Shown here one piece after another: positions 145 to 38,563 of a DNA stretch of 38,713 bases. The stretch comes from a virus. The notes under the pieces are model-generated. The model was not told where the DNA came from, searched no databases, and saw nothing but the letters and a program-made list of their open reading frames with translations. The position numbers and the translations under genes are program-made. How positions within the stretch are numbered: the stretch's first letter is position 1; each line of letters begins with the position of its first letter. Location: IMG/VR virus record IMGVR_UViG_3300029258_001256, positions 1 through 38,713 of that record. The stretch is one strand, 5' to 3'.

Positions 145-242
145 ATGAGGGAATTGATATCACCCCCACTAGCGTTCTTCTGTATTAGTCCCGCGAGCCT
201 ATCCTGTGGTGTAGTAGAGGCAGATGTAAATTCGCTACTCAT
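1..242 (-). CDS. 81-aa protein downstream of portal (3' end continues across the circle join)
   Basis: ATG at 242-240 overlaps the portal stop codon (TAATG), so translation is probably coupled to the portal. Reading leftwards off base 1 and continuing at 38569, the frame ends with TAA at 38568-38566, giving 81 residues. The protein begins MSSEFTSAST, has a predicted helix (residues about 13-40, with DRLAGLIQKN and SLIEKLRQ) and a Gly/Pro/Lys-rich C-terminus. There is no recognised domain. Its place between portal and giant virion protein suggests a minor head or portal-associated protein; this is inference from position only. Confidence 0.75.
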   Translation of the reverse strand, partial: MSSEFTSASTTPQDRLAGLIQKNASGGDINSLIEKLRQATGRGATGGPAGPFQPKRLRVPGVANTGKPENLTSKLAKPPE

Positions 243-1760
243 TACTGTTCCTCCAATCCCATGCGCTTCGCCCCTTCACCCACTGAACTCCCTGCATCTA
301 TCAGCTTGGGGATACTCGGCTGTAGCAGCCCCGGCTTTTCGGGCTTTTCACCATTGCCACCACCCGTTAGCTGAGGAGAAGGCTGAGGTTGAAGCATAGC
401 CTCAAGCTGCATCCAGACCAGTTCTGCCTCGTCAAACTTCTCACTCTCCACCAGCACCTTGTAAATGCGGTACAGCCTGGTAGCAGGAGACAGGACTTCG
501 GCAAGCTGATCCGCAACCTTACCCGCCACGCCCTTCGGGTCGTCCAGCTTGATGATAGTTTCCCTGATTGTGTCATCATCGAGGAACGGCCTTGCAGCAG
601 CAGCAACGGAGTAGTTGGCGATATTCTCCTCAGGGGAGATCGTCACGAAGTCAAAGGAAATCTCGTAGTCGCCCTTTAGGTCTTTTGCCGTGTAGGTCTT
701 CTTTTTCCCGGGCGCACCCAAGGTGACTGTTAAATCCTGATCTATGAACTGTTTTATGATGCTTTCCGCTATCTGCCGATATTGCAACTTGACCGCGCTC
801 ATAAAAGGCGCAAGCACCAGCATCCTACCCTGGCCCAGCTTGGCGATGGCAACGGCTGAGAGTTCAAACCCCAATTCGCCGTATTCCACATAGGAGAAGG
901 TACGCCTCTGAATGGCTGCGCTAATCTCTCTATACATGAAAGGCGCAATCTCTTTGATGTCCGCGAAGGGGATTTCCATAAACCCCTCATCCGTCTTGAT
1001 GGCAATGACACCACCAGGGGCATAAGGTGAAGTCTCAGGGTATTTATTACCCTCGGCTGACTTGAAGCCCATCGGCGGTTTGAAGCCCATGACGTTGACC
1101 GTCTGCATGATGGTAGCGAGCTTGTTCTTTTCGGCATACAGGCCCCTTGATATAGATGATGTTTTCCTTCTCATCCCAGAAGTCAACCACGTTCTGCGAC
1201 TTGCCCTTGCTCTGCGTCTTAAAAGCGTATTCCCTCTCGATCTGGAAATTGGTCTTGGAGATCGTGTTGGAGCCCCAGGCGATATCTTCCGCGCCCATAT
1301 CGAAAGCGCCGTACCGCATATCTATAGGCAGAATATCAAAGATAACTTCGCCCCCATCCTTCACCACCAAAGTACGGCTCCCCGTCCAGCCCCGGATCCC
1401 AGCGCCAAAAGTCAGGTTCTCCCTCAGCGTCCCTTTCCTCTTCTTGACCAACCGCCTGTCGGCCTGAGCCAGCGCCCACCATAAGAACTCCTCAATCACG
1501 GTAGCCTTGTCTTGCTCAAGGCCATCGACGATAATACGCATATTCGCCGTATTCATAAGAGCCAGAGCGCGGGAGGCGAATAGCTCCGGGTCATTACCCG
1601 TGACGTTATCGACCTTCTCGACCTTCTTGTTGTCGTAGTCAAGAAGCTGAAACTTCTCCAACCTGTAGAGCTTCAGGTCATTGTCCATGCGTTGCCGAAG
1701 AGACTGAAGCTCGTTCTCTTTTTCACTAACCATAGTGGCGCATTTAAGTCCTATAGTCAT
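242..1760 (-). CDS. Portal protein, reading frame split by an apparent +1 frameshift
   Basis: The portal forms the dodecameric DNA channel at the head vertex. The first part (1760 to about 1145) starts at an ATG overlapping the TerL stop (TGATG) and has portal-like features: a helical N-terminus, then VTGNDPELFASRALALMNTA and IIVDG, matching the usual 'N-P...A...L..A..RI' entry of portal families. The second part (about 1140 to 242) continues in the +1 frame as AEKNKLATIMQTVNVMGFKPP and carries the helical rest. Removing one G from the G4 run in minus-strand AAGGGGCC (near 1142-1145) fuses the frames into 505 residues, a normal portal length. Overlap of the two frames is at 1047-1186. No canonical slippery site is seen, so an indel or sequencing error is more likely than programmed shifting. 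Identity as portal rests on position after TerL plus motif style. Confidence 0.8.
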
Positions 1761-5252: not shown

Positions 5253-5278
5253 GACAACGTTGACAGCAGGAGTTGTCA
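5252..5278. promoter_or_regulatory. Operator-like inverted repeats over the start site
   Basis: TGACAAC at 5252-5258 is repeated in reverse as GTTGTCA at 5272-5278. The 14-bp near-palindrome TGACAACGTTGACA occupies 5252-5265, directly after the -10 box. This location would let a bound repressor block transcription of the plus-strand cluster. The binding protein is unknown; the RHH protein at 5730-5888 or the phage repressor are candidates. Confidence 0.5.
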
Positions 5279-5332
5279 GCCTAGAGAGGAGCGCCGACCA
5301 GCTTTTAAGCCGGCTAGAGAGGAAGGCCGGGG

Positions 5333-5506
5333 ATGCAGTCATACAAGGCATCGCTGCGAGAGTCTATCGGCAAACTAGAAGCGCAGCGGAAGATCAGGCC
5401 ACTAACCGAGGAAGAGGCCGAAGCATTACAAGACTTATATGACAAGCTCGACTGCCATCAAACATACCTAGATGAAAGTGGCAAGGCATACGAGGAGCAA
5501 GACTGA
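5333..5506 (+). CDS. Hypothetical 57-aa acidic coiled protein
   Basis: ATG 5333 to TGA 5506 encodes a highly charged helical protein, beginning MQSYKASLRESIGKLEAQ, with a central LTEEEAEALQDLYDKLD and an acidic end. It is the first gene of the plus-strand cluster behind the promoter at 5223-5252. A purine-rich GAGAGGAAGG lies about 10 nt upstream. A longer overlapping frame (5251-5442) starts at TTG inside the operator and is less convincing. No family recognised. Confidence 0.65.
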   Translation: MQSYKASLRESIGKLEAQRKIRPLTEEEAEALQDLYDKLDCHQTYLDESGKAYEEQD

Positions 5507-5520
5507 GAGGAGACGCGACA

Positions 5521-5718
5521 ATGTGGGACGGATTAAGTGAGCCTATACCGGGCAAGGCTTGGGTGCTAGAGCATAGCTGGTATCAACTCCCACCACAAGG
5601 CATTGAAATATACTACGATGGCGAATTGCTCGGTGCGCTGGACGGTTGGGAACGTGGTACAATAAGGCAGCTGATGGGTCAGCCTATGCAACAGTCTCAG
5701 CTTAACATGGAGCTATGA
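5521..5718 (+). CDS. Hypothetical 65-aa protein
   Basis: ATG 5521 has GAGAGGAG 8 nt upstream and follows the 57-aa gene by 14 bp. The protein begins MWDGLSEPIPGKAWVLEH and looks like a small beta-rich fold (WYQLPPQGIEIYYDGELLGAL), then a short helical end rich in Gln and Met. It has no recognised domain. It is co-transcribed with the flanking small genes, so it may share their function in regulation or lysogeny, which remains inference. Confidence 0.7.
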   Translation: MWDGLSEPIPGKAWVLEHSWYQLPPQGIEIYYDGELLGALDGWERGTIRQLMGQPMQQSQLNMEL

Positions 5719-6001: not shown

Positions 6002-6448
6002 CTAGGACGGGGGCTTGACACGGGATAATTTGATTACGTTTTCGTAATCATTTTCCCCTCGATATCGCCTCTGTCTTTTCCAAGTCAGATAATCAAGTTC
6101 CTTCCTCTTGCTTCCACGCATATACCGTAACGCTCGCCTGGATTCCTCCTGCATGAATTGTACGCTGATCCCAGCCCTAACCTCAGAGAGTAGCAGCTTG
6201 CCCTCTAATCCTGTGGCCTCCAACCTAGCAGATAACTCAGCGCACACTTGGACTGGTGTCTCAAACGGGGCCTTCTGGCTCCTGGCTCGATCCTCTCCAA
6301 CATAGCCACTAGCCACACCTTCGGGGGGCCACTCCCCGGCACAGATAGTAGCCTTGTGTTTCAAGAGCCATAGTATCTGCTCTTCCCAATCATCCCCGGC
6401 GAAGGTTATCTCCCTCGGGTCCCACCAGTCCTTCGGTTCACCCACTAC
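6002..6448 (-). CDS. Hypothetical 148-aa protein, end of early operon
   Basis: No family recognised. A GTG at 6448 follows a purine-rich GGGGGCAAGGG, so I prefer it to a TTG at 6460; both overlap the end of the upstream gene. The protein has a Trp-rich N-terminal part (DWWDP, DWEEQILWLLKHKA), a middle segment (VQVCAELSARLEATGLEGKLLL) and a strongly basic C-terminal region (RGSKRKEL, WKRQRRYRG) that could bind nucleic acid. Its place as the last early gene before the packaging module resembles that of late-transcription regulators, but this is positional inference only. Confidence 0.7.
   Translation of the reverse strand, partial: VVGEPKDWWDPREITFAGDDWEEQILWLLKHKATICAGEWPPEGVASGYVGEDRARSQKAPFETPVQVCAELSARLEATGLEGKLLLSEVRAGISVQFMQEESRRALRYMRGSKRKELDYLTWKRQRRYRGENDYENVIKLSRVKPPS
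6031..6050. repeat. Perfect 8-4-8 inverted repeat
   Basis: TGATTACGTTTTCGTAATCA: 8-bp arms and a TTTT loop, within the last codons of the 148-aa gene. The same 8-4-8 architecture with a TTTT loop occurs at 10232-10251 in the iteron array. It could be a protein-binding site or an RNA hairpin. Confidence 0.6.
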
Positions 6449-6645: not shown

Positions 6646-6674
6646 TTGCAATCTTAATTGGAATATGCTATACT
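6646..6674 (+). promoter_or_regulatory. Promoter of inserted HNH gene
   Basis: TTGCAA (6646-6651), a 17-bp spacer and TATACT (6669-6674), with TG in the extended -10 position. The ATG at 6682 lies where transcription should start, so the mRNA is probably leaderless. Confidence 0.7.
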
Positions 6675-6681
6675 TATTTCT

Positions 6682-7176
6682 ATGAGCAGGTACAATCGTA
6701 GCGAAGCACTTGAGAAAAGAAGGCATCCATGTATTGATTGCGGACAGCCTTGTTGGGATAAATCTACCCGTTGCCGAGCTTGTTTTCACCAGTTTACCCA
6801 TATACATTGGCGAGGGAAACAAAGCCCCGCTTGGAAAGGAGGAAAGGTATGGGCTGCTTGGGGTAAACAAAATCCAGCTTGGACTGGCGGTAAGCACAAA
6901 CACGAAAAGGGTTATATCCTGATACGCCACAAAGATCATCCACGTGCAAAATCCAATGGCTATGTTTATGAACATATCTTGGTTTGGGAAAACGCACATG
7001 GGAAGCTTCCCCCTCCCGGATGGCACATTCATCATCTGAATGGAATCCCTTGGGATAATAGACCTACGAACCTTGTTGCTATACCAGCACAAAAACATTA
7101 TCTCGTCCTTGAGGCAAAGGCGAAGAGAATCCAAGAACTGGAAGCCCTTCTTAAAAATCAAGGCCATCTGTGCTGA
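6682..7176 (+). CDS. HNH homing-type endonuclease, 164 aa
   Basis: Encodes a free-standing HNH nuclease. The N-terminus has a treble-clef-like cysteine cluster (CIDCGQPC, then CRAC). The middle has the repeated Trp/Gly motif 'SPAWKGGK' / 'NPAWTGGK'. The C-terminal part has the HNH core: GYVYEHILVWENAHG, WHIHHLNGIPWDNRPTNL. It is on the plus strand within a run of minus-strand genes and has its own promoter, which fits an inserted homing endonuclease gene. An ATG at 6658 is in frame, but it would lie inside the promoter, so 6682 is preferred. Codon usage looks more AT-rich than the neighbouring structural genes (by eye). Confidence 0.9.
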   Translation: MSRYNRSEALEKRRHPCIDCGQPCWDKSTRCRACFHQFTHIHWRGKQSPAWKGGKVWAAWGKQNPAWTGGKHKHEKGYILIRHKDHPRAKSNGYVYEHILVWENAHGKLPPPGWHIHHLNGIPWDNRPTNLVAIPAQKHYLVLEAKAKRIQELEALLKNQGHLC

Positions 7177-10885: not shown

Positions 10886-11548
10886 CTATCCCCCTTCCAT
10901 GCTAGGTGCTACAGGATAATATTCTCTAACAATATCAGCGCACTCTCTAAGGGTGTCGAAAAAGGCGGCATCGGTGACGGCATAGGAGGCATAGGCATCG
11001 GCGGCACGGGCGGCGGCAGAGGCGGCAGAGACGGCGACATAGGCGGCATCGGCGGCGGCATTGGCGGCAGAGGCGGCACGGGCGGCGACATAGGCGGCAT
11101 CGGCGGCGGCATTGGCGGCAGAGGCGGCGACATAGGCGGCATCGGTGACGGCAGAGGCGGCAGAGACGGCGACATAGGCGGCATAGGTGACGGCATAGGA
11201 GGCATAGGCATAGGCGGCGGCATAGGCGGCGGCATCTCTTACATCTTGAAGGGTAATCCCTTCGTCTCCTCTAGCCCACGCCTCAGCAGTTTCAATCGCT
11301 TTCAGTGGGCGCATTTCCCCCTTCTTTACATAGGGCAATGCCAACCTAGCACACTGACATACTACTAATACCAGCTTCTTGCGGCTATCGGACTCAGGCG
11401 GCCCCGATAGCATACCTAAAAGCCACAGCATCCAATCCCCACACTCACACGCTTGCCACGCCTCATCGAGTGAGTCAAATTGTTCGCACCAGTCCACAGC
11501 TTCATCACATGCCTCCATGTCTGCTATTGGTTCAATCCATGCTTTCAT
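10886..11548 (-). CDS. Ala/Tyr repeat protein resembling Imm5-type 'putative immunity' proteins
   Basis: A 220-residue protein with two parts. Residues 1-100 are ordered: an acidic and Cys-containing start, then WMLWLLGMLSGPPESDSRKK, ARLALPYVKKGEMRPLKAIE and TAEAWARGDEG, which closely follows the N-terminal region of a family annotated as putative immunity protein (Imm5-like). Residues 105-200 are a low-complexity array of AADAAYVA-type units. A globular end (FFDTLRECADIVREYYP) follows. Its role in phages is unknown. The start ATG 11548 has AAGGAGG and overlaps the upstream stop. The array is encoded by near-identical GC-rich tandem repeats and probably varies in length. Confidence 0.75.
   Translation of the reverse strand: MKAWIEPIADMEACDEAVDWCEQFDSLDEAWQACECGDWMLWLLGMLSGPPESDSRKKLVLVVCQCARLALPYVKKGEMRPLKAIETAEAWARGDEGITLQDVRDAAAYAAAYAYASYAVTYAAYVAVSAASAVTDAAYVAASAANAAADAAYVAARAASAANAAADAAYVAVSAASAAARAADAYASYAVTDAAFFDTLRECADIVREYYPVAPSMEGG
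10931..11250. repeat. GGCGGC-rich tandem repeats inside the Ala-repeat gene
   Basis: Imperfect tandem units built from GGCGGCGACATAGGCGGCAT and variants such as GGCGGCAGAGGCGGCA fill about 300 bp. Their GC content is well above the flanks. Slippage or recombination between the units would change protein length in steps of whole codons, because most units are multiples of three. Confidence 0.8.
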
Positions 11549-17244: not shown

Positions 17245-17270
17245 CAATTTTAGAATTATTTGACAAATTG
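17245..17270. promoter_or_regulatory. Candidate operator between divergent promoters
   Basis: CAATTT (17245-17250) and AAATTG (17265-17270) form an inverted repeat 14 bp apart that covers the -35 box of the repressor promoter and lies just upstream of the early promoter. A bound repressor could act on both. Other partial palindromes exist here, so the exact sites are uncertain. Confidence 0.4.
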
Positions 17271-17289
17271 GACTAGTTTGGATTATAAT
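17260..17289 (+). promoter_or_regulatory. Repressor promoter
   Basis: Consensus TTGACA (17260-17265), an 18-bp spacer and consensus TATAAT (17284-17289). The predicted start (about 17296) is only 4 nt before the repressor ATG, so the mRNA is nearly leaderless, as for lambda cI from PRM. Confidence 0.85.
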
Positions 17290-17299
17290 AGGCGATGTT

Positions 17300-17923
17300 A
17301 TGTACTCAGACGATGCGACACGGAAGCAGCGCGGCTTGAGAGTTAAGGTAGCTAGGATGCTTCAAGGTTGGGGGCAAAGAGAATTAGCTAAACGGGCTGG
17401 TTGTGCCCATATTACTATTTCAAGATTAGAGCGTGGTATAGGACGAACTAATTTTGAAACAATGCAGCAAATAGCAAGTGCCCTTGGTCAGCCATTGGAG
17501 TATTTCATAGCAGGGGATCCCCTGCATCATCCACATTTCACCATGAAAGGACCCACCCTCGAACACATCCCCCTCGCTTCGATCCCAGTTTTGGGACAAC
17601 TCATCTCCGCTGGCCCTGGTGCTATCCCAGAGGAGCATATCTACATCCCAGAAAAGAACGCAGTTAAGGAAGGCGTCTATGCCTTGAAGGTTACTGGTGA
17701 ATGTATGATGCCCAAACTTAGCCCAGGGGATATCGTGGTTTATGATGTCGATGTCTCGCCTAAAGACAAGGACATAGTGGTGGCTACAAGGGATGATGAG
17801 GTGCTCTGTAAGCGATACCGGCAGGAGGATCATAGAGAGTGGCTAGAATCCAACGATACCGTGATAGGCATGGAGGGCGTGGAGGTCAAGGGAACGGTGA
17901 TCGGTATTTATCGTGTGCCTTAG
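17300..17923 (+). CDS. LexA/CI-type phage repressor with Cys at the nucleophile position
   Basis: A 207-residue repressor. Residues 12-70 form an HTH_3 domain with recognition region GQRELAKRAGCAHITISRLERG. Residues 95-205 are an S24 LexA-like peptidase: possible cleavage site A104-G105 (LISAGPG), the nucleophile segment VTGECMMPKLSPGDIVV and K171 in VLCKRY. In this family the nucleophile is Ser in G(D/E)SM; here codon 135 (17702-17704) is TGT, Cys. The Lys is kept. Self-cleavage may be altered, so SOS induction may differ. ATG 17300 sits just after a consensus promoter. Confidence 0.92.
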   Translation: MYSDDATRKQRGLRVKVARMLQGWGQRELAKRAGCAHITISRLERGIGRTNFETMQQIASALGQPLEYFIAGDPLHHPHFTMKGPTLEHIPLASIPVLGQLISAGPGAIPEEHIYIPEKNAVKEGVYALKVTGECMMPKLSPGDIVVYDVDVSPKDKDIVVATRDDEVLCKRYRQEDHREWLESNDTVIGMEGVEVKGTVIGIYRVP

Positions 17924-17957: not shown

Positions 17958-18002
17958 CTGATAAGACTGAGGTCTCTGGTTCGAGTCCAGAATGGCCCAC
18001 CA
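17958..18002 (+). other. attP: Candidate attP core: 3' half of a tRNA-Ile(GAT) gene
   Basis: The 45 bp start with anticodon-loop CTGATAA (anticodon GAT), then the 3' anticodon stem GACTG, variable loop AGGTC, T-arm TCTGG-TTCGAGT-CCAGA, acceptor strand and CCA (18000-18002). The 5' half of a tRNA is absent: the bases before the loop (TTTCCTT) do not pair. Such a half-tRNA beside the integrase is the classic attachment site, which restores the host tRNA on integration. It lies between repressor and integrase. Confidence 0.88.
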
Positions 18003-18022
18003 CAAAGCTAGGAGCAAGCATT

Positions 18023-18955
18023 ATGGCAAGCAGCAAGTCGAAGCACCAGGTTTTAGACCACAGTATTACGAGGGACTTAGATATGCCTAGAGCGCTTTCG
18101 TGCATGGAGGGCTGGCTTGCCGACCTCAGAATACGAAACTGCTCCCCCCTGACACTAGCAAGACACGAGCAGGTAATAAAGAGGCTCATATCTGTTATTG
18201 GCGATAAGAAAGTCCACAAGATCAAGCCCGACGATATCCGGCTTTACCTCGCCAGTCGCATTGAAAAGGTCGCTCCCAGCACCGCAGATATGGAACGAAG
18301 GACTATCCACGCCTTTTTGAACTTCTGTCTTGAAGAGGGGTTTATAGACTCTAATCCGGTGAGCAAAATGAAGCCCACTCACCTACCGAAGAAGGTTATC
18401 CCCCTCCTCAGTCAAGACGTGATAGCAAAGCTACTGGCAGCTTGTAATGATAAGACATTCCTCGGTGCGCGGAACAAGGCAATCATTCTAACTCTTCTCG
18501 ACACAGGAGTTCGGCGCGCCGAGCTCGTGTCAATGACCCGCAGGGATTTATACAAAGAGGCGATCACGATACACGGCAAGGGGGCAAAGGAACGGTTCAT
18601 CAAGATCAGCCCCCGGACGCAGAAGGCCATCTGGCGCTATATGCTATTCCGCAGAGATAACCTAGATGCCCTCTGGCTTACCGAGGAAAGACGACCACTC
18701 AGGGTTCAGGGGTTACGGATGATGATAAGACGGTTGGCTAACAGGGCTGGCCTTGACGGAGAGAGAATATCAGCCCACATCTTCAGGCATACCTTTGCTA
18801 CCCAGATGTTACGCCTGGGCGTTGATGAGCGCTCTGTGCAGATACTCTTGGGCCATTCGAGCAGCGCCATGACCAAGCGCTATACCGAGCAATTCAATAG
18901 CGAGGACGTGCTTAGGCTTAATCAGGTCAGCCCGGTTGATGCGATGGGTCTTTAG
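18023..18955 (+). CDS. int: Tyrosine integrase
   Basis: A 310-residue XerD-like tyrosine recombinase. The N-terminal SAM-like DNA-binding domain covers about residues 25-110. The catalytic set is complete: R164 (TGVRRAEL), K186 (HGKGAKER), H252 and R255 (AHIFRHTF), H278 (LLGHSS) and Y287 (MTKRYTE). ATG 18023 has AGGAG 9 nt upstream, and the putative attP lies 20 bp before it. It is downstream of the repressor on the same strand, so both may be expressed in the lysogen. No excisionase-like gene is obvious nearby, though the RHH protein at 16988-17149 could serve. Confidence 0.95.
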   Translation: MASSKSKHQVLDHSITRDLDMPRALSCMEGWLADLRIRNCSPLTLARHEQVIKRLISVIGDKKVHKIKPDDIRLYLASRIEKVAPSTADMERRTIHAFLNFCLEEGFIDSNPVSKMKPTHLPKKVIPLLSQDVIAKLLAACNDKTFLGARNKAIILTLLDTGVRRAELVSMTRRDLYKEAITIHGKGAKERFIKISPRTQKAIWRYMLFRRDNLDALWLTEERRPLRVQGLRMMIRRLANRAGLDGERISAHIFRHTFATQMLRLGVDERSVQILLGHSSSAMTKRYTEQFNSEDVLRLNQVSPVDAMGL

Positions 18956-19164: not shown

Positions 19165-19485
19165 TCATAGCTTCCCCAGGACTTCCAAGATTCCATAGAT
19201 GATAGCAGTTATTGCAGCAGCAGTACCGCCACCAACAACAGCGGTGCGCTTTCTTGACCCTTGATAGCCACCATTAGCACCGTTATTCTTGACTGTTTTA
19301 CATAGGTTCTTGACCTCGGTGCGGAGACTGGCTAACTCCTCCCCGTGCTTACTGATGGTTTCCCTGTTAGTTTTTACCTCCGCTTTGAGGCCATCCATTT
19401 CCCTGCTGAAAAACTCCCGTGTCAGTCTCAGGGCGCTATCAACTACATCTATGCCTATAATCTTGTCTCTCCCTTGTGCCATCAT
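19165..19485 (-). CDS. Holin-like protein: coiled coil plus one C-terminal membrane span
   Basis: About 106 residues from ATG 19485, which overlaps the phosphoesterase stop (TGATG). Residues 15-75 are a charged coiled coil (REFFSREMDGLKAEVKTN, KHGEELASLRTEVKNLCKTV), then a basic GSRKR and a hydrophobic stretch TAVVGGGTAAAITAIIYGIL. This design resembles XhlA/holin-associated or Bhl-type proteins. Position at the end of the late genes supports a lysis role. No endolysin is identifiable beside it. Confidence 0.6.
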   Translation of the reverse strand: MMAQGRDKIIGIDVVDSALRLTREFFSREMDGLKAEVKTNRETISKHGEELASLRTEVKNLCKTVKNNGANGGYQGSRKRTAVVGGGTAAAITAIIYGILEVLGKL

Positions 19486-20183
19486 CACACCTCGTCATAC
19501 AGATTGCAGCGCTCGATCCCCTGAGTGTCATGGATTAGATAATCTCCATCCTTCGCTGCCCCACAGTCCATTACGAAGGTCACTCCCGGCTTCCCTACAG
19601 AACCACCCTGACAATGAGTGTGTCCCAAGACCACCGTAACCTCATGCCTCTCGGCATAGGCCATTCCCTTGCGCCACAGCCAATTAACTTGCTTGGTGTA
19701 CTTCCTTTTCTTTGGCAACCCCTCTTCCTTCAACTCGCTCGGTATCCAGCCCATCTTTTTGCTGAACCAGTACCAGGGCTTCGGGAAGTAGTCAACCATG
19801 AACTCCACAATCGCCGGGGCCACATGGCGCAGCAGCCACCAGTCGGGACTCCAAGAGTGACCGTGCCGTAGGTGAACGCCATTGGGTAAATTCTCCCTTC
19901 GCTTCACGGTAACATTGGGCATATCACAGAACAGGCGCTTGAGATATCGGTACGGGTCATGGTTGCCCCCGAGAACTAATATCGGGTAGCCATCAAGAAG
20001 CTCCTCAAACTCCTTCAGCCACTTCTCCCACCCGTCGGGACCGAGAGGCAGGATATTGATAAGGTCGCCATTGCTGTAAAGCCTGCACCGGAGGGCCTTC
20101 GCCCGATGTACTATCTGGCGCAGGTTCTCGCTCACTCCGTCGCGGTTATCATGCAGGTCTGAAAAGTAGATATGGGTAATCAT
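19485..20183 (-). CDS. Calcineurin-like metallophosphoesterase
   Basis: A 232-residue enzyme with all metal-binding blocks of the superfamily: FSDLHDN (D9, H11), NGDLIN, LGGNHDP, RHGHSW and VLGHTHCQ. Between the last two blocks is an aromatic-rich insert (SPDWWLLRHVAPAIVEF, PKPWYWFSKKMGW) that may bind lipid or a membrane. The substrate is unknown; phosphodiesters of nucleic acids, cyclic nucleotides or lipids are possible. It is the third gene from the end of the late operon, with ATGA overlap upstream, so it is made with tail and lysis proteins, which is unusual for a housekeeping-type enzyme. Confidence 0.85.
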   Translation of the reverse strand: MITHIYFSDLHDNRDGVSENLRQIVHRAKALRCRLYSNGDLINILPLGPDGWEKWLKEFEELLDGYPILVLGGNHDPYRYLKRLFCDMPNVTVKRRENLPNGVHLRHGHSWSPDWWLLRHVAPAIVEFMVDYFPKPWYWFSKKMGWIPSELKEEGLPKKRKYTKQVNWLWRKGMAYAERHEVTVVLGHTHCQGGSVGKPGVTFVMDCGAAKDGDYLIHDTQGIERCNLYDEV

Positions 20184-30148: not shown

Positions 30149-30886
30149 CTATTTCTGCGCTTCCTCCCGCCTTAGACCTTCCTGAATCTTCTGGAAAGCT
30201 GTCATGCTCCCCAAGTCAATCCCTCCACCAGTCCCAACACCAGACTCGAAGAGTGGCTTGGCTACCGGGGTCGTAGGTGGTGTAGCAGATGGCGCACCCC
30301 CACCAGCTTTCGCCAGCGTTTGAGCGAACACCGTCATCTGGTCTTCGTTCTCTGGGTTCAGGTTTGCCAGGGCTTCAGCGGAAACGCCATGCTCCCCGGC
30401 AATTCGATGCAAGGCGAAAAATCGGCGGTAGTTTCCTAACTCCTGACTATCTGCCTCAAACTCCAACTCCCTGAGCCCGAGTGTTTGTTCTCGAAGTCTC
30501 AGGTTGGCATCGCGGGCGCGGTAATCGCGCCTCTCTTTTGCAAGAGCCTGAAGGTCGGGATCTTTCCTTGCGCCTCTCTCTTCCTCATCATCGACTTGCG
30601 CCTGAAGCGTAGCGTTCTGTTGCCTCAACTGTTCGAGTTCGGCGTTGGCAAAAGGAACAAGTTTGAGCGTAGTCTTCATGGAAGCAATCTCTCTCCCTTG
30701 CTCGGTAAGCCGTTTCTGAAAGTCGCCAGTCGCAGCAGCAATCGCCTTGTCCAAGTCTTCCTGAAGGTACACTGTGACGGCAGGTTTGCCAGGAGACGGA
30801 GCCTTAGTAGCAGCAGGGGGGCCACCCTGGTCACTTCCGTTTGCAGGTTGGTTGCCCTGAGCCTTTGGGTCCTTGTCCTGTGTCAT
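30149..30886 (-). CDS. Scaffold protein (245 aa)
   Basis: ATG 30886 has AAGGAGG 6-7 nt upstream. The N-terminus is Pro/Gly-rich and disordered (GNQPANGSDQGGPPAATKAP). Residues 45-160 form a long coiled coil (LDKAIAAATGDFQKRLTEQG, LRQQNATLQAQVDDEEERGA, DLQALAKERRDYRARDANLR). A flexible Gly-rich end finishes with a helix (GSMTAFQKIQEGLRREEAQK). This composition and its place just upstream of the capsid gene are those of a scaffold; no protease is seen. Confidence 0.85.
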   Translation of the reverse strand: MTQDKDPKAQGNQPANGSDQGGPPAATKAPSPGKPAVTVYLQEDLDKAIAAATGDFQKRLTEQGREIASMKTTLKLVPFANAELEQLRQQNATLQAQVDDEEERGARKDPDLQALAKERRDYRARDANLRLREQTLGLRELEFEADSQELGNYRRFFALHRIAGEHGVSAEALANLNPENEDQMTVFAQTLAKAGGGAPSATPPTTPVAKPLFESGVGTGGGIDLGSMTAFQKIQEGLRREEAQK

Positions 30887-30924: not shown

Positions 30925-31122
30925 TTACATTTTTGAGAACCTTATTAGTCTCTCGATACCCAAGAGAAGTACCAAGAGGAAAAACACTAACTCAGAAATA
31001 CGAATAGCGATATTGGGTTCAGCAACCTTTACTGCATCCACAAACCACATACCAGCAAAGATAGCTGCCATTGTTCCCGATATAGTAACCAGCAGCGCCG
31101 AGGCAATGATGCTTCGCCACAT
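30925..31122 (-). CDS. Two-span membrane protein (65 aa)
   Basis: The ATG at 31122 (MWRSIIASALL) has GGAGG 5 nt upstream and is preferred to the TTG at 31134. Two hydrophobic segments (IIASALLVTISGTMAAIFAG and SELVFFLLVLLLGIERLI) flank a short charged loop, and the end is basic. The shape suits a holin or another small inner-membrane protein. It stands between the scaffold gene and the divergent micro membrane-protein operon. Confidence 0.75.
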   Translation of the reverse strand: MWRSIIASALLVTISGTMAAIFAGMWFVDAVKVAEPNIAIRISELVFFLLVLLLGIERLIRFSKM

Positions 31123-31135
31123 GACGTCCTCCAAT

Positions 31136-31166
31136 TTGGATAGTTCTTGACAGGTCGTGATATAAT
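31136..31166 (+). promoter_or_regulatory. Promoter of the micro membrane-protein operon
   Basis: Consensus TATAAT (31161-31166) preceded by TGA, an extended -10. A weak -35 TTGGAT is 19 bp upstream (31136-31141); a TTGACA at 31147-31152 is too close. The start falls on the GTG at 31173, so the mRNA is probably leaderless. Confidence 0.6.
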
Positions 31167-31172
31167 GACGGC

Positions 31173-31268
31173 GTGAGAAAGGGCATTGATGTTGCTCTCA
31201 CAATAGTCGCTGTGAGCCTGATAGCCTTCGGTCTTATCTGCGGTATTCAGGCAATGATAGGTTTGTGA
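31173..31268 (+). CDS. 31-aa membrane peptide (first of three)
   Basis: GTG 31173 sits at the predicted transcription start. It encodes MRKGIDVALTIVAVSLIAFG and LICGIQAMIGL: a short basic start and one membrane span. Its stop overlaps the next ATG (TGATG). It lies on the plus strand, opposite to the structural genes. Possible roles are lysis control, superinfection exclusion or lysogenic conversion; none can be chosen from sequence. Confidence 0.6.
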   Translation: MRKGIDVALTIVAVSLIAFGLICGIQAMIGL

Positions 31269-31444
31269 TGAGGAAAGTCATCGGCTGGCTTGTTCTTTGC
31301 CTCGGGATCCTGGTTATCATGCCCGGTGGTGCGATTGCCAGCGATCTCGGTATTCCCGCGCCGTTATCAATAGCTATAGGTGTGGGAGTGGCCCTTATTC
31401 TCAGCGGGTGGTTTCTATCTCATCCTAAGAGGAAAGAGATATGA
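31268..31444 (+). CDS. 58-aa two-span membrane protein (second of three)
   Basis: ATG 31268 overlaps the previous TGA. The protein has two hydrophobic segments (VIGWLVLCLGILVIM and LSIAIGVGVALILSGWFL) separated by a short loop with IASDLG, and a basic end (HPKRKEI). It overlaps the third gene as ATGA, so all three are translationally coupled. Topology suggests both ends in the cytoplasm (positive-inside rule). No family recognised. Confidence 0.65.
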   Translation: MRKVIGWLVLCLGILVIMPGGAIASDLGIPAPLSIAIGVGVALILSGWFLSHPKRKEI

Positions 31445-31581
31445 AAAAAGCAGCGTGGTTCAGCTTCAGGGTATTCCTCGGCATCGCCTTCTGGGGCGTG
31501 GTGATCCTTCACGTCCTGTGGTTCTTTCAGGTCGGCTTCTTCGGTGACTTTGACTTTGGCCCCTTCTGGGTGAAGACCTAG
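31441..31581 (+). CDS. 46-aa aromatic membrane protein (third of three)
   Basis: ATG 31441 overlaps the preceding stop. The sequence starts MKKAAWFSFRVFLGIAFWG, has one membrane span rich in Trp and Phe, and ends with an aromatic, Gly/Asp segment (GFFGDFDFGPFWVKT). Eleven of 46 residues are Phe. Its stop TAG overlaps the stop of the giant gene on the other strand; both use the palindrome CTAG at 31578-31581. Unknown function. Confidence 0.6.
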   Translation: MKKAAWFSFRVFLGIAFWGVVILHVLWFFQVGFFGDFDFGPFWVKT

Positions 31582-34500
31582 AACTCCCTACCAGCGTGTT
31601 CCTCCATCTCCTCTAACCACTCAGGCTTGTCGGTAGGAGTCTTTGGTCTGCTAGAGAAGTCGCAGCGGTCAGTACCATATACCCTCTTGTATCCCTTCGC
31701 CGTCACCAGCCAGTCATCGAGAGCCTTGTTTTGACAGCGAAACTCCAACCGGGGTCTGCCCGTACCCTGCTTCTCGTACTGAAGGAACAACCCCCAGACT
31801 TCCTTAGTCGGTACTTTGCTAAAGTCCTTCGGCTCCCACTCAAGCAAGGAAAGTGCAGCCTGGTAAAAGTCAGGGTTGTCTTGCAGGAACCACTCTTGGG
31901 CGTAACCAGACGTAGGCAGCTTGTAGTATTCCACATACGTTTCAACCATCTCATCGGCAAACCCGTGCTGATAAGCGTCCCGCCTACGCCGATCATCGGC
32001 GTACTGCGGATTCTGTGAAAGGAATAGCTCTCTGGCCTCTCGCCTTTGCCCCTCATCCTCGATGTAAAACTCAGACTCCCTATCGCCAAAGCCATCATAC
32101 TGAGCATCTAGCCCTCGCCACTCGACACTGAGGCGCAACGCCTCGGGATGAGCGTCTATCTCTTGCCAGCCCCACTCTTCCTGACCCCACGCGTCCCACT
32201 CAGGATGCTCCAACCTGAATAGCCGTGCCTCGGCACTACTACCACCAAACTCAAGAGACACCTTATTGTATTCAAAATATGGCTCTATCAGGCTTTGCGG
32301 TGGCAAGCCGAGCCCCAACTGTCCCAGCGGAAAGCCGTACTCCGCTGCTCGGGAGACGAGGATATCGTAGGCTTCCATACTCTGCAATTTCCCACCATAG
32401 CCCCAGAGGGCTAACATAGCATCCGCTTCAGGATTCTTTAACCTGAACTCAGCGCGCCAGTCCTTAGTCAAGTCAGGGTGGCTCTCGATAAAGGCTTCCC
32501 GCGCCTCATCGGTTTCCAATGCCTGATACTCTCGCCACAGCGAAACATACCTTGTGGGAATGTTGCCATCAGCCACATCTTGCTCGTCCATCTGTATAAT
32601 AGGCTTGTAGGGCAACTGCCAATAGCTTCTGCCCAGCTTGTCCTTATCCTCAGCCAGAGCAACCAGAGCAGGGTGCATCCCCTCAAGTAGTCTCTTCTGG
32701 GAATACATCTCCCTGATGATCTGGTAATAATCTGCGCCCCACTTCTGAATGAAGCCGTCAATAGCCTTGTCTCTCGCGTCCCAATCGTAATCGCCTTTCT
32801 CATCCTGATACTCGGCGAACATAATCTCTATGTATTCAGCCAAGACCATATCTGCCTCAAACAGATACTTGTCGCCCTTCTCCTTCTGCTTCTCGAAGTA
32901 GTCATAAATCCACTGATAGGCCGGGGTATCTTCCATCGTATCGAGGGCAGTACCGTACTGGCTTCCATCCTCTGCCCACATTTCTCTCAACTCCCGCGTA
33001 TCCAGTTCACCAGCCAAAACCCTCTCTATCAGGCTATGACCAGACTGGTAATAGGCATCCCGTTCTGCCTCCTGCTGCTGGGTCCAATCCTTCCAATGGT
33101 CGCTCTGCCGTAGCTCGCTGTCAGCCTGAGCTTCCACATAGGCATCATAGAGTTCCGGGTAGCGGTGAAGCAGGTTTATCTTCTGTATCTTGGTCAGGTG
33201 CGCCCACTTCAGCTTGCCGTCTTTCCACGCGTCCCTCTGCTTGGCATCCAGTTCTTCCACAGGGAGACGGGGGATATACTTATTGGCAACGTCATAGAAC
33301 CTCTGCCAAGCGTACTCAGGATTTACCCGCAGCCCGAATAGCTCGCCAAGGACCCAAGATGCCGTCTCCAAAGCATCCTCTGGAACCTCGTAGTCTCCGC
33401 GCAACTGCGGGATGAGAGGATTGATAGATTGCTCAACCCAAATGGGCTGAAGCAGCTTAATCAAATACTGCCCATACTCTTCCGGCGTTTCTATCGGGTA
33501 GCCGAGGAAGTCCCTGCCTGTTGCCAGTTCATAAACTGTGCTGGTCAATGCTGCCGATCTGCTATATTGCCAAGCAATCGTAGGATTGTCCTGCTTGTTC
33601 AAACTGCCGTGCTTGAGTATGCGGATTAGGTCAATGCGTTCCCTCTCTCCAACCTCGTTAATCGTGGCTGCAACATTCCCTAGTAGCCTCATAAGCCCAT
33701 AGATACCGCCACCGATGCCGTAGGAGGTATCGCCAATTTGCAGCGACATAAATTTGGCCGTTGGATTCCAAGACCAGTCGCCAGTGATGGGGTCGTGGAC
33801 AATGCCAAAGCCCTCCATCACTATGTCCCAGGCCTCGTCATCATCCATGCCTTCGAGCTTACAGATGGCAAATTGTATGCCCACGAAGAAAGCCGAGCCA
33901 GCAACCACGAACCCACCAATCGCCCTTCTAGCCATCGAGCCACTATAGCCACCCCTGAATATATCTGCCACCAGCGTCATGTAAGAGTAGGTGTAGGCCA
34001 TCGAGAACAGAATCCATGATTGCTGAAGCTGTCTGACCGTCATCGGCACACCGAGGGCTCGAGGATCTGCGATGCCCGTCACTAGGTCAAGGTGGCGAGC
34101 AAGCTCAAACTCCTTGCCCTTCTCGATGGCTTTGGGCGAGAGGATTTCCCAGAACCGGTCCCGAACTATCTCACCCCCGGTGAAGAACGCTACCTCTGCC
34201 CTCTGATATGGGGTTAGTGGTATCGCCCTCAATGCCTGTTCCCCCATTCTGGCTATTCGCCCTTTGCCTACTACCGCCTCCATCTCTTGAAAGAAGAACA
34301 CTGCCCTTGAGCTACCGCCACAGGCTATGCGCTGCATCGCCATCTCTTTGTTCTTTTCCATGAACCTTGCCATGATGCCGGGATTAAAGAACGCGCCTAT
34401 CTGCTCGAAGAAGCACTTATACCACGCTCCCATCATCCGAGCCCCTTTCGGTGGGTCAAAAACTAGATAGGCATGAGCAAGACCCCAAGAGAGTGTGCCT

Positions 34501-37500
34501 TGAATCGCTGGCTGAGAGAAGTCCAGCGCAGCCTTGACAATCCTCATTAAGCCCGATACATCAGCAAAAGGTTGAAGCCAGTCCTGACCCTCTTTATGCC
34601 CGAAGAACTTGTTGAAGGCATCTATAAAGTCCTGATCGTACTTCCTGCCCTGTGCAAACGGATGCTGAATAAAGCCCTCATCAATCCCAGGCTGCTTTAC
34701 TTGCTCCATCCTGTATTTGCGCTCTGCCCTGGCTTGCCAATACGGTATCTTCCTCGCCTCAGCAATGTCCTTGACCTCTTTCCGCAGAGCTACGAGCGCA
34801 GCCTTGCGCTCCTTTGCTGTCCTCTCGGCTGGGACTTCGTAGGAGACTCTGACCACCTGAGTATCACCCTCTAGTCCTTTTACACCTTCGACCTTCGGCT
34901 TGATAGCCACCGGCAACTCGCTCTCAGGCAACCCCGCTGCCTTCCAAGCGTCAACCAGCTTGGCATAATCGTCCATTGAAATCTGTGTTACTTCACCTTT
35001 GCCCTTCGGCTGGACAGGCTGGGCATAGCCAAACATATCTTGCTGCATCCCACCTTCAGGCGCACCGGATTCGGGTACTTCAGGCGTTGGCTCGAACTGA
35101 GGGATGAACTCGGGGTCGGTGTCCACCTCGTCCAGCACCCCCACCATCCGCTTGATACCCTCTTGCCTGTCCCTCGCTATCTTTACCAAGACACGCAAAT
35201 CCCTGGCCTGGACTTTCATCTTGGCAATGGACTCAAGATGATTGATGAACTCTTGCTCGCTCATACCGAAGTGTTCAGCAAGCTCGTCAACAACATACTC
35301 CCACCTGACACGGCCCTCTAGGGTCAGGACGTTGGGCAGGATCTCTCCACCCATAAGGACTAGCTCGGCTTGCTTTTTGGTGAGAGTTTCAGGCCACTTG
35401 CCATGTACCAGCAGACTAACGAGGGAAATGGAGGATGACCTTTTCACCCCCTTCTTTGTGACAAAGGTTCGTCTCCCCCTATATACGGCTACGGGATCTG
35501 TCCTCAAATACTCTTGGATGCTGTCTAGCTCTGCTTCCTGCTCTCCTACCATCTGGACAATATCTGCCAACTGGTCCTGCATAGTCGCCCGGAAAGCCAA
35601 GCGGTCTTCGTAGTCCATCAGGCGAAAAGCCTCAGTCAGCTTTACACTATCAGGGACTTCACCCCTCTCCATCTTCTGAATAGCAGCAGCATCTATTTCC
35701 TTCTGCTTTAATTGTTCCTGCAAAGCCTGAATGACCTGTTTTGTTTGAGACAGAAGTTGCCGTAGCTGCTTCTCTGCGGTAACAGGCTCGGTGACGAGCG
35801 CCCTGAACCTTCTGCCGTGTTCAGGGAACCGCCTCTCGATAGCATCGAGCGTTTGCTTCGGCAGCACCTCACCCCTGATAGCTCGGTTGATCTTGTCTTG
35901 AAAAGCCTTAGCATCAGCCAACTCCTCGGCGGTCACTACCGCCCTCTCAACAGCTTCAGGGTATCTCCTCAGCAGTTCCTCGCTCGGCAGAACACCCATC
36001 TTAGCCAGAGGCTCTAATTCCTTTGCAAGATACTTCTCAAACCGAGCATCAGCTATCTTGCTAAACGCCTCTTCTATAAAGGCAGCAACGGAGTCAGCGG
36101 GGTTTCGCCCATAGAGGATACCCCACGCTATGCCCTCAGCCATCGTTGGCGCTTGGCGGTGCATCTCGTATGATTTCTTACCACCTATGCGCCCCCGGCG
36201 TACCCCGGCCCTACCGCGCACCATAGTCAGTTCGCCTTCGGGATCATATTTGCCCACGACAATACGCTTCAGCCACCAGTCTTCAGTGACGCTCTCAGGC
36301 GCTACCCCCTCAGCTTCGAGCATTTTGAGAACTGCCATGTTTATCCTATGGACAAGATACACATAAGCAGATTGTTTCTTTGTGAGATTATACTTCTCAG
36401 GATGAGTGAAAATGTCTTCTATCGTGCCGTCTGCATCTTCAGCTATCCGCTTCACCTTTGACGCTGGGGCTACAGCTTGCTTGTTAAACCCGAAGAGCTT
36501 GACGGGGTTGGAATCTACTGCCATCATTCGCCAGTTTGTGACCGCACTAGCGCCTTCGCCTTTTCTATTTACCTCGGCATGGAGGAACTTACCGCGCCCA
36601 GCTATATCCTCGATGGCCTCTGACTGCCTTCTGACCAGTATCCTCTTGCCGAATACCCACTCAATAGGGGGTCTGAGAACACGGGTCTTCGCAGTAAGCC
36701 TCAAGGCTTCTCTCTGCCAGGAGTCGGTCATAATGCCGTCAAGGATTTTCTCTGAGTCGGGGATCTCCATGAGCACCGGGGGCTCTTGCTCTGGAACCTC
36801 TATCGAGGTTGCAATCTCCCTCAACTCGTCCATCGTGTTAGTAATACTCTCCATTCCCTCAGCAGTTTCAGCTATCCGGTTCAACGTCTCTGTCTCTGCC
36901 TCTGCCTCCGATGCACCGCCCTCTATTAACTCAGCCTTAATCCGTTCATATTCAGCCCTGAGATCAGGGGAGAAGTCCCGCTTGACCCTCTCTGTCAGAA
37001 CTGTCCAGACACTACCAGCACCGCCAAGGCCCATACCGAAGATAGCACCAATCGCCATCGCCTCGCTCATCTGGGCATCCAGCGCCGTCTCCTCACCGAG
37101 CGCCCTACGCTGCACCATCTCCTGAAAGCCCTCCTCGCCAGCCTCCAAAGCGCCAACGCCAGTGATCTTTCCCCCTGCAAGTGTTATCGCACCCAAGCGA
37201 GTGTTTGAAAAGCTCCTGATGATTTTCCCCCCGCCTTTAAGTGGTGCAAACGCAGCAGCGAACTCCACTGCGTCCATGCCAACGAGGGCAAGATTATGCT
37301 CAAAGGTACTCCGCGCAGCGCTCGCAGCCTCCTCCTCGCTCATCCCTTGCTGTAGCGCTTGCTCGTACGCCCCGGCTGCTTCAAACGCACTCTCTATTGG
37401 CCTAGAAACTGATGCAGCCCCCAAAGCACCCAGAACAACCCTACCGAAAGAACCGAGGCCCAGCGCTATAGCACCAGCCACACCAGCCACACCCCCGACA

Positions 37501-38563
37501 AGCGCTGCCGGGATGAGACTTAGCGTGAATGGAACTGCCCTTGTGACTGAGGTTGCCCACCACTCAGGGTCTAAAACACTTTGCCAGCCAAAGTCACCGG
37601 GGTCTTCAGGGGGGATAAAGTGGGAGCGCATGAAATCGCCAAGCTCTTTAGCCTGTTTGCCCAGCCAATCCGCACCAGCCCAATCAAAAATCTGACCAGT
37701 AGCAGAGACAATATCGCCAACCCCTGCGTAGAAACTCGACTTTACCTTCTCCCATAGCGAAGCCGACTTGTAGCCAGGGACAATCTCGGCTATTTCTTTT
37801 CCGCTAAAGCCGAACCTGCGGAGCTTCTTTTCAGCAGTCTCAGGATGCTCCTCGATAAAATCCCAAATCGCATTGACCTTCGCCTCATCAGACCAGTCAG
37901 CCCAAGCCTCTTCGCCCGGAACTTCTGTCTGCCATTTGCCCTCAATAAACTCAACCCCGATATCCTTCGGCGCGACCTCCCACTTGACAGTATCCCAGAA
38001 CATCGGGATCAGGTAAGGCTCGATACTTTGCCTGTTAATCTCCCCTTCCGGCATGACGGCGAGGGCTTCCAACTCCTCAGCCGTATATTTCTCACCTGTG
38101 GGGCTAACGAGGAAAGCCTGATAGCCCACTTCAGTATCAGGGGCAGATGCAATCTCGACACCCCATCCCTCGTCAAGATCCAACCCGTATTGCTTAGCCT
38201 CCTCAGCGGTCAGCGTAAAGGATGAACCCTCCGGCACGGCTCCTGCTTGCGCCGGGGCTTGTGTAGGCTGTAACTGCTCCTGCGTGAACTGCTTGCCCTG
38301 TGGAGAGATATACGTTCCACCCTCTGTAATCTTCCACCTGTCAGGGGTGAAATAAGCAATATCATAGGGCTTATCTTCTCTGCCTGTAGGGGTTAGCTCA
38401 AGCTCCCAGCCAGAAGGTATCTCAATGCCCCAATCGAATCGGCAGCCTGAAACTGAGTCAGGCGGATAGGCTTCTCTCGCAGCTTCGGCTTCGCCTGGGT
38501 CTTCTGGTAAAGCTCCTCTATCCGTTCTGGTGAAACATCCTTAAAAAAGTTTGGAAACGTCAT
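31578..38563 (-). CDS. Giant virion/polyvalent protein, about 2,328 aa, N-terminal frameshift
   Basis: An uninterrupted frame runs from 38237 (GTG) to 31578, 2,219 residues. It is open further upstream with protein-like sequence (GWELELTPTGRED, GGTYISPQGKQFT). A good start, ATG 38563 (MTFPNFFKDVSPERIEEL), just after the previous gene, is in another frame: one missing base near 38490-38510 would join them. Parts, numbered from 38237: paired 'WELEL/WGVEI' beta units at the start; a hydrophobic Gly/Ala region (about 236-275); helical blocks typical of large polyvalent or internal virion proteins (300-1400); a second hydrophobic helix (about 1435-1465); and from about 1890 five or more 'R..F...NP...W' units. 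Likely ejected with DNA or in the head interior. Confidence 0.75.

Follow-up and report, generated by a model that had tools for sequence, protein, structure and literature searches.

What is a set of three overlapping ORFs, each encoding a tiny hydrophobic protein, doing within the structural gene block of a phage and on the strand opposite to all of its neighbors? We addressed this question for a locus in the virus record IMGVR_UViG_3300029258_001256, the whole 38,713 bases of which are referred to here as the window. A preliminary description had regarded the triplet as a moron and named superinfection exclusion, a membrane toxin, or lysis control as its candidate roles. The features concerned are listed in Table 1.

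Table 1. Positions and properties of the features of the window considered in this study.
Feature	Position	Strand	Properties
HTH + S24 repressor gene	17300–17923	+	Promoter TTGACA-18-TATAAT, 10 nt to ATG
attP core and tyrosine integrase	17971–18955	+	attP 17971–18002; integrase 18023–18955
Scaffold protein gene	30149–30886	-	Other border of the slot
65-aa two-span membrane protein	30925–31122	-	Late strand, same cargo slot; Shine-Dalgarno GGAGG
Perfect palindrome TCCAATTTGGA	31130–31140		Overlaps -35 of the triplet promoter
Sigma70-type promoter	31137–31166	+	TGGATA, 18 nt, extended -10 TGATATAAT (TATAAT 31161–31166)
p31	31173–31268	+	31 aa; GTG start; predicted one-span membrane peptide, hydrophobic span 7–25
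p58/59	31265–31444	+	59 aa from GTG or 58 aa from ATG 31268; predicted spans 5–23 and 33–51
p46	31441–31581	+	46 aa; ATG start; one predicted span 11–29; aromatic C-terminal tail
Giant 2219-aa protein gene	31578–38237	-	Stop borders the slot; putative polyvalent internal/ejection protein

Genome Organization, Lifestyle, and Host

The window ends in a 144-bp direct terminal repeat and thus represents a complete, circularly read phage genome. The terminase, portal, giant, scaffold, major capsid, and tail proteins are all encoded on its minus strand, and the HTH/S24 repressor and the tyrosine integrase on its plus strand. Just upstream of the integrase gene lies a 32-nt attP core identical to the 3' end of tRNA-Ile(GAT) in 20 of 393 Dehalococcoidia genomes. 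Judging from the repressor, the integrase, and this tRNA-type attP, the phage is temperate. The identity with tRNA-Ile(GAT), together with a relative of the capsid protein (41%) found in a Dehalococcoidia MAG, indicates that the host is probably a member of Dehalococcoidia.

Capsid protein relatives of about 45–53% identity occur in 169 of the 393 Dehalococcoidia genomes (e.g., L230–L259), mostly in single copy, and in most of them the giant protein is missing upstream of the scaffold gene. These loci can be read either as abundant prophages or as a gene-transfer-agent-like element that is vertically kept; being mostly devoid of the giant gene, they were uninformative for the comparison of the slot described below. 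We also observed that the portal gene (242–1760, minus strand) consists of two overlapping frames (1760–1047 and 1186–242), both parts of which are matched within a single frame in L229, L261, and L268; a frameshift, a sequencing error, and a programmed shift are the alternative explanations. An HNH-endonuclease-like ORF (6658–7176, plus strand), probably a homing endonuclease, is located amid the minus-strand early region, and positions 10886–11548 (minus strand) encode a repetitive Ala/Tyr-rich protein with AAYAAYAYASYAV... repeats.

As for the giant protein, it contains hydrophobic segments, and its homologs in L110 and L088 carry the LPD38 polyvalent domain, that of L088 also giving a weak match to a virion RNA polymerase PHROG. 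Comparison of a giant-protein profile with PDB sequences returned nothing convincing. From its position, the LPD38 domain of its homologs, and the weak virion RNA polymerase match, it is plausible that this protein is an ejection or internal virion protein.

Three Membrane ORFs With Their Own Promoter

The ORFs themselves are as the preliminary description had them: three frames of 31, 58 (or 59), and 46 aa, joined by a GTGATG overlap (p31/p58) and an ATGA overlap (p58/p46), all strongly hydrophobic and with one or two spans each predicted from hydropathy. p58/59 has the form of a two-span hairpin, basic at both ends, which are probably both cytoplasmic, and it is predicted to be translationally coupled to p31 via GTGATG. 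An AGAGG motif is found upstream of p46, and the stop codon of p46 overlaps that of the giant gene (CTAG). The orientation was also confirmed, as all flanking genes are on the minus strand and the triplet represents the only likely plus-strand genes from about 19 kb to the end of the window. In turn, the suggestion that the 65-aa protein belongs functionally to the triplet found no support: its gene lies on the strand of the late operon, has a normal ribosome-binding site, and shows no tie to the triplet.

Such an arrangement is hardly obtained by chance. When the stretch was dinucleotide-shuffled 5,000 times, neither three membrane ORFs nor two in a chain ever appeared, and the mean was 0.13 membrane ORFs per shuffled stretch. 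Codon usage of the triplet (0.083 bits per codon, versus -0.01 to 0.10 for the real genes of the phage) exceeds the average for 198 shadow ORFs (-0.02), yet stays inside their 95% limit; at such length the test is weak, and we treat it as supportive only.

The independent promoter that had been claimed for the triplet is readily recognized in the sequence as TGGATA-18-TATAAT with the extended TG, and its score was not matched in 5,000 shuffles. The TGnTATAAT motif occurs twice in the window, the second site facing the early (leftward) region. A TTGACA at 31147 was rejected as the -35 element, being only 8 nt from the -10. Since the -10 ends 6 nt upstream of the p31 GTG, transcription should begin at the start codon, and the mRNA is probably leaderless. 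The 9-mer TCCAATTTG of the palindrome that overlaps the -35 recurs once, within the promoter of the repressor gene (17264–17272; chance about 0.02), which we consider a lead only. Downstream of p46 we found no terminator, only a weak stem within p46 and another weak stem 280 nt further, and a scan of the late strand found nothing resembling a terminator over the length of the cassette.

A second plus-strand island is present behind the gene for the terminase small subunit (5260–5718). Two ORFs of about 60–65 aa make up this island, and the start of the first is preceded at 7 nt by a TTGACA-18-TATATT promoter; the island may be a further moron sharing the promoter layout of the triplet.

Conservation of the Triplet Proteins

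In viral contigs, homologs of p58 and of the 65-aa protein were found in one contig only, and among the fetched loci p31 and p46 had no match outside it. This contig is 99.97% identical to the window over 19.6 kb, the sole difference being a 5-bp tandem-repeat deletion (AATCG) at window position 38437, between the portal and giant genes, and it is uninformative about selection; conservation of the triplet cannot therefore be shown from it. A match of p58 in Pseudomonas HRDY3 (E 0.07) was discarded as too weak. Searches of the triplet proteins against Pfam, PHROG, and PADLOC gave no match and revealed no homology with SieA or other exclusion families; likewise, the region has no match in Rfam. 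As the triplet proteins lack homologs, the comparison was moved to the genomic site.

The Giant-Scaffold Slot in Related Phages

We collected loci with a readable giant-scaffold junction, the baits being the capsid protein and a C-terminal portion of the giant protein, and obtained a census of 31 distinct phages, the window included. Cargo calls involved judgment, in that antisense ORFs merely overlapping a sense gene were regarded as shadows. In 17 of the 31 phages (L009, L090, L094, L096, L109, L112, L113, L162, L265, L268, L269, L270, L271/L272, L273/L274, L275, L279, and L301) the slot is empty, with 12–132 bp from the giant stop to the scaffold start, compared with 692 bp in the window. 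Eight phages carry sense cargo only (L092, L110, L111, L261, L262, L264, L267, and L276), including zinc-ribbon ORFs, and six carry antisense cargo (the window, L088, L105, L263, L277, and L298).

The antisense cargo encodes a membrane microprotein (31–103 aa) in all six phages. The relatives have different single membrane genes at this site, and the window has three in tandem. The membrane ORFs of L088, L105, L263, and L277 have a shuffle P of at most 0.004. In each of the six, the stop of the cargo gene lies within a range from 12 nt inside the giant gene's stop to 11 nt past it, and a sigma70 -10 element ends 6, 11, 9, 6, 6, and 6 nt upstream of the start codon (window, L088, L105, L263, L277, and L298, respectively). 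For the first five, the promoter outscores more than 99.8% of the sequences obtained by shuffling the region upstream of the same gene. Counted by locus, and before the sixth case was known, antisense cargo went with membrane products and sense cargo with soluble ones (5/5 v 0/8; Fisher P = 8e-4). L298 came as the sixth antisense case from a held-out last scan, after the rule was formed; the other new readable site was empty.

The cassette proteins are mostly unrelated to one another, and only the pairs L088–L277 (z 4.5–4.9) and L263–L298 (z 3.0) stand out, the members of the former being perhaps distant relatives. L263 and L298 share 84% identity across 64 nt of promoter, yet their proteins give only a weak alignment, a pattern that fast-evolving cargo would be expected to show. 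The conservation of the three frames in relatives, which the preliminary description had named as its own test, does not hold; conservation extends instead to the slot, the orientation, the membrane nature of the products, and the promoter layout. Non-conservation of the frames beyond the near-identical contig is what would be expected of spurious ORFs in an intergenic region, yet the shuffle tests, the placement of the promoter, and the recurrence at the site effectively exclude that explanation.

How specific the promoter layout is was estimated by scanning 413 kb of the clade for ORFs of at least 30 aa whose start is preceded, at no more than 14 nt, by a promoter of this strength. Thirteen non-redundant ORFs were found, five of them with membrane products, and every one of these five is a slot cassette; among the rest are the phage repressor and a Cro-like gene. 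The score threshold was chosen when five cases were already known, so that L298 alone is a true held-out test. The layout of the cassette promoter is thus that otherwise found at lysogeny-control genes.

Several further elements were noted in the relatives. Mu Com-like zinc-ribbon ORFs occur as sense cargo of the slot in L092, L105, L261, and perhaps L276; the 60-aa ORF beside the L105 cassette is similar to PHROG gpCom (E 1.5e-7), and the remaining ones are weaker or unscored. L088 possesses a strong plus-strand intrinsic terminator (CCGGCTTTACGAGCCGGTTTTTT, 6258–6283) between the promoter of the antisense cassette and the scaffold gene, facing late transcription. A repressor operator common to the relatives' cassettes was considered and rejected: the dyads of L277 (TTGCC-N5-GGCAA) and L088 (TTGACAAATTGTTAA) do not recur in their genomes and so give no evidence of CI control there. 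The L277 phage also encodes (L282, 7133–7456, minus strand) a membrane protein of 107 aa with several spans, whose gene follows the last tail gene in antisense orientation beside the integrase and is perhaps another lysogen-expressed membrane gene.

Possible Roles of the Cassette

The designation as a moron is well borne out: 17 related phages lack a cassette at the site, 13 have other cargo there, and the triplet has its own promoter. At the sequence level we thus see an insertion and an own promoter, and no own terminator, and we regard the triplet as almost certainly a genuine, independently promoted moron. Expression of the cassette in the lysogen is likely, although less firmly so.

Lysis control would make the two-span and one-span peptides holin/antiholin-like timers of lysis, with the 65-aa protein as a partner. 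Their topologies do match holin classes, and no endolysin was recognized among the proteins searched. Peptidoglycan is absent in Dehalococcoides, and a phage of a host of this type would mainly need to permeabilize the membrane. Yet the cassette runs antisense to the late genes from a promoter of early/lysogeny type, and the slot is empty in 17 of the 31 phages, so the cassette is dispensable for lysis. Moreover, a separate XhlA-like candidate with a weak match to a hemolysin PHROG is located after the tail genes (19165–19488), and the triplet proteins, encoded antisense within the structural block and outside the lysis module, show no match to holin families. We consider this role improbable. 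Improbable as well, and placed by us behind lysis control, is a membrane toxin, i.e., a type I-like or abortive infection effector silenced by the antisense late transcript or by the repressor and released under some condition. Hydrophobic peptides of 31–58 aa are similar in size to type I toxins and opposing transcription is built into the locus; against this, neither a promoter of a small antisense RNA nor an antitoxin partner was identified, Rfam gave no match, and a strong leaderless promoter would give constitutive expression.

The transcript rather than the peptides might matter, with a convergent RNA exerting control over the giant mRNA at its 3' end or over the expression of the scaffold. 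The stops of the cassette and the giant gene overlap or almost touch in six of six phages, and the corresponding P22 moron is thought to affect late read-through into the tailspike gene (PMC2629481). Since such an RNA would leave the conserved membrane character of unrelated proteins unexplained, we find it very improbable. Lysogenic conversion of another kind, in which the peptides alter host physiology (e.g., a membrane-bound enzyme or transporter) or the cell envelope to the benefit of the lysogen, is less remote and still unlikely. An independent promoter and a dispensable slot are typical of any moron, and the sequence indicates no specific target; however, the repeated site behind a giant virion gene and the fast divergence of proteins under a kept promoter fit phage-phage conflict better.

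Among the roles named in the preliminary description, superinfection exclusion appears to be the best anatomical fit, given the position and orientation of P22 sieA. According to this reading, a small operon inserted antisense in the cargo slot between the giant and scaffold genes would be transcribed from its own strong sigma70 promoter into an mRNA that is probably leaderless. The late operon would be silent in the prophage, so that the cassette could be on; during lytic growth, late transcription would cross it in the opposite direction, with no recognizable terminator in between, and shut it off automatically. The three peptides would enter the host inner membrane and, by analogy with P22 SieA, interfere with the way in which related superinfecting phages assemble their DNA-delivery conduit, which would protect the lysogen. 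The palindrome across the -35 counts against exclusion, as it could mean repression in the lysogen. On balance, we offer prophage-expressed exclusion at DNA injection as a tentative full explanation that falls somewhat short of probable.

A broader version, which seems rather doubtful, is a dedicated immunity slot, where unrelated antisense membrane microproteins would be swapped under a retained leaderless promoter and turned off by late transcription, each of them (here a three-peptide complex) blocking phages that bear the partner ejection protein. If true, the immunity gene would be linked to its target as in P22, with proteins 2–5 times smaller than SieA. The slot thus provides a predictive rule for the site: behind the giant gene, antisense, with a start-proximal promoter, and encoding a membrane peptide. 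Having found a new case in the held-out scan, it may offer a route to candidate exclusion microproteins too small or diverged for homology searches.

Comparison With Known Systems

The commonest recognizable cargo in the same slot of the relatives, the Mu Com-like zinc-ribbon proteins, is soluble, encoded on the sense strand, and missing from the window, in contrast to the membrane-type, antisense triplet. Lambdoid morons, independently expressed insertions in late operons according to the definition quoted in PMC2629481, share with the cassette the insertion relative to relatives and the own promoter. An own terminator is typical of morons, though outside the working definition of PMC2629481; here none was found, and all six antisense cargoes differ from lambdoid morons also in encoding membrane proteins. 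The HK97 gp15 moron and TP-J34 Ltp are cited in PMC10883804 as exclusion proteins that affect tape-measure-dependent DNA entry. They are membrane-associated prophage products whose target is in the injection apparatus, as would be the case for the triplet, but they belong to long-tailed phages, are located differently, and have no homology that we could find to the triplet proteins.

The closest likeness is to sieA of P22 (the "ant moron," between gene 16 and the tailspike gene 9). In the P22 record, sieA and ejection gene 16 lie on opposite strands, sieA following the gene 16 stop by 22 bp and having a promoter to itself; among P22-like phages, the segment that separates gene 16 from gene 9 is variable and corresponds to the moron definition (PMC2629481). 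SieA is an inner-membrane, prophage-expressed protein that blocks DNA injection, its escape mutations map to the ejection proteins gp16 and gp20, and its types are less than 30% identical (PMC10883804). Like sieA, the cassette is convergent with and directly behind the giant gene, itself a putative ejection-type gene, has its own promoter and predicted membrane products, and occupies a slot that is variable or empty in relatives and filled with diverse sequences. The two differ in that SieA is a single protein, about 164 aa long, whereas the slot cassettes encode 31–103 aa, with three in tandem in the window; that the sieA promoter lies about 30 nt upstream and is not leaderless, while those of the cassettes are start-proximal; and that the other border of the slot is the tailspike gene in P22 and the scaffold gene here. 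Host and phage are unrelated and SieA has no sequence similarity to the triplet, which we accordingly do not assign to the SieA family; from the similar position we propose exclusion, and the triplet may work like SieA. Since a Salmonella phage shares this anatomy with unrelated phages of uncultured Dehalococcoidia, an immunity gene placed beside, and facing, an ejection gene may be a general solution.
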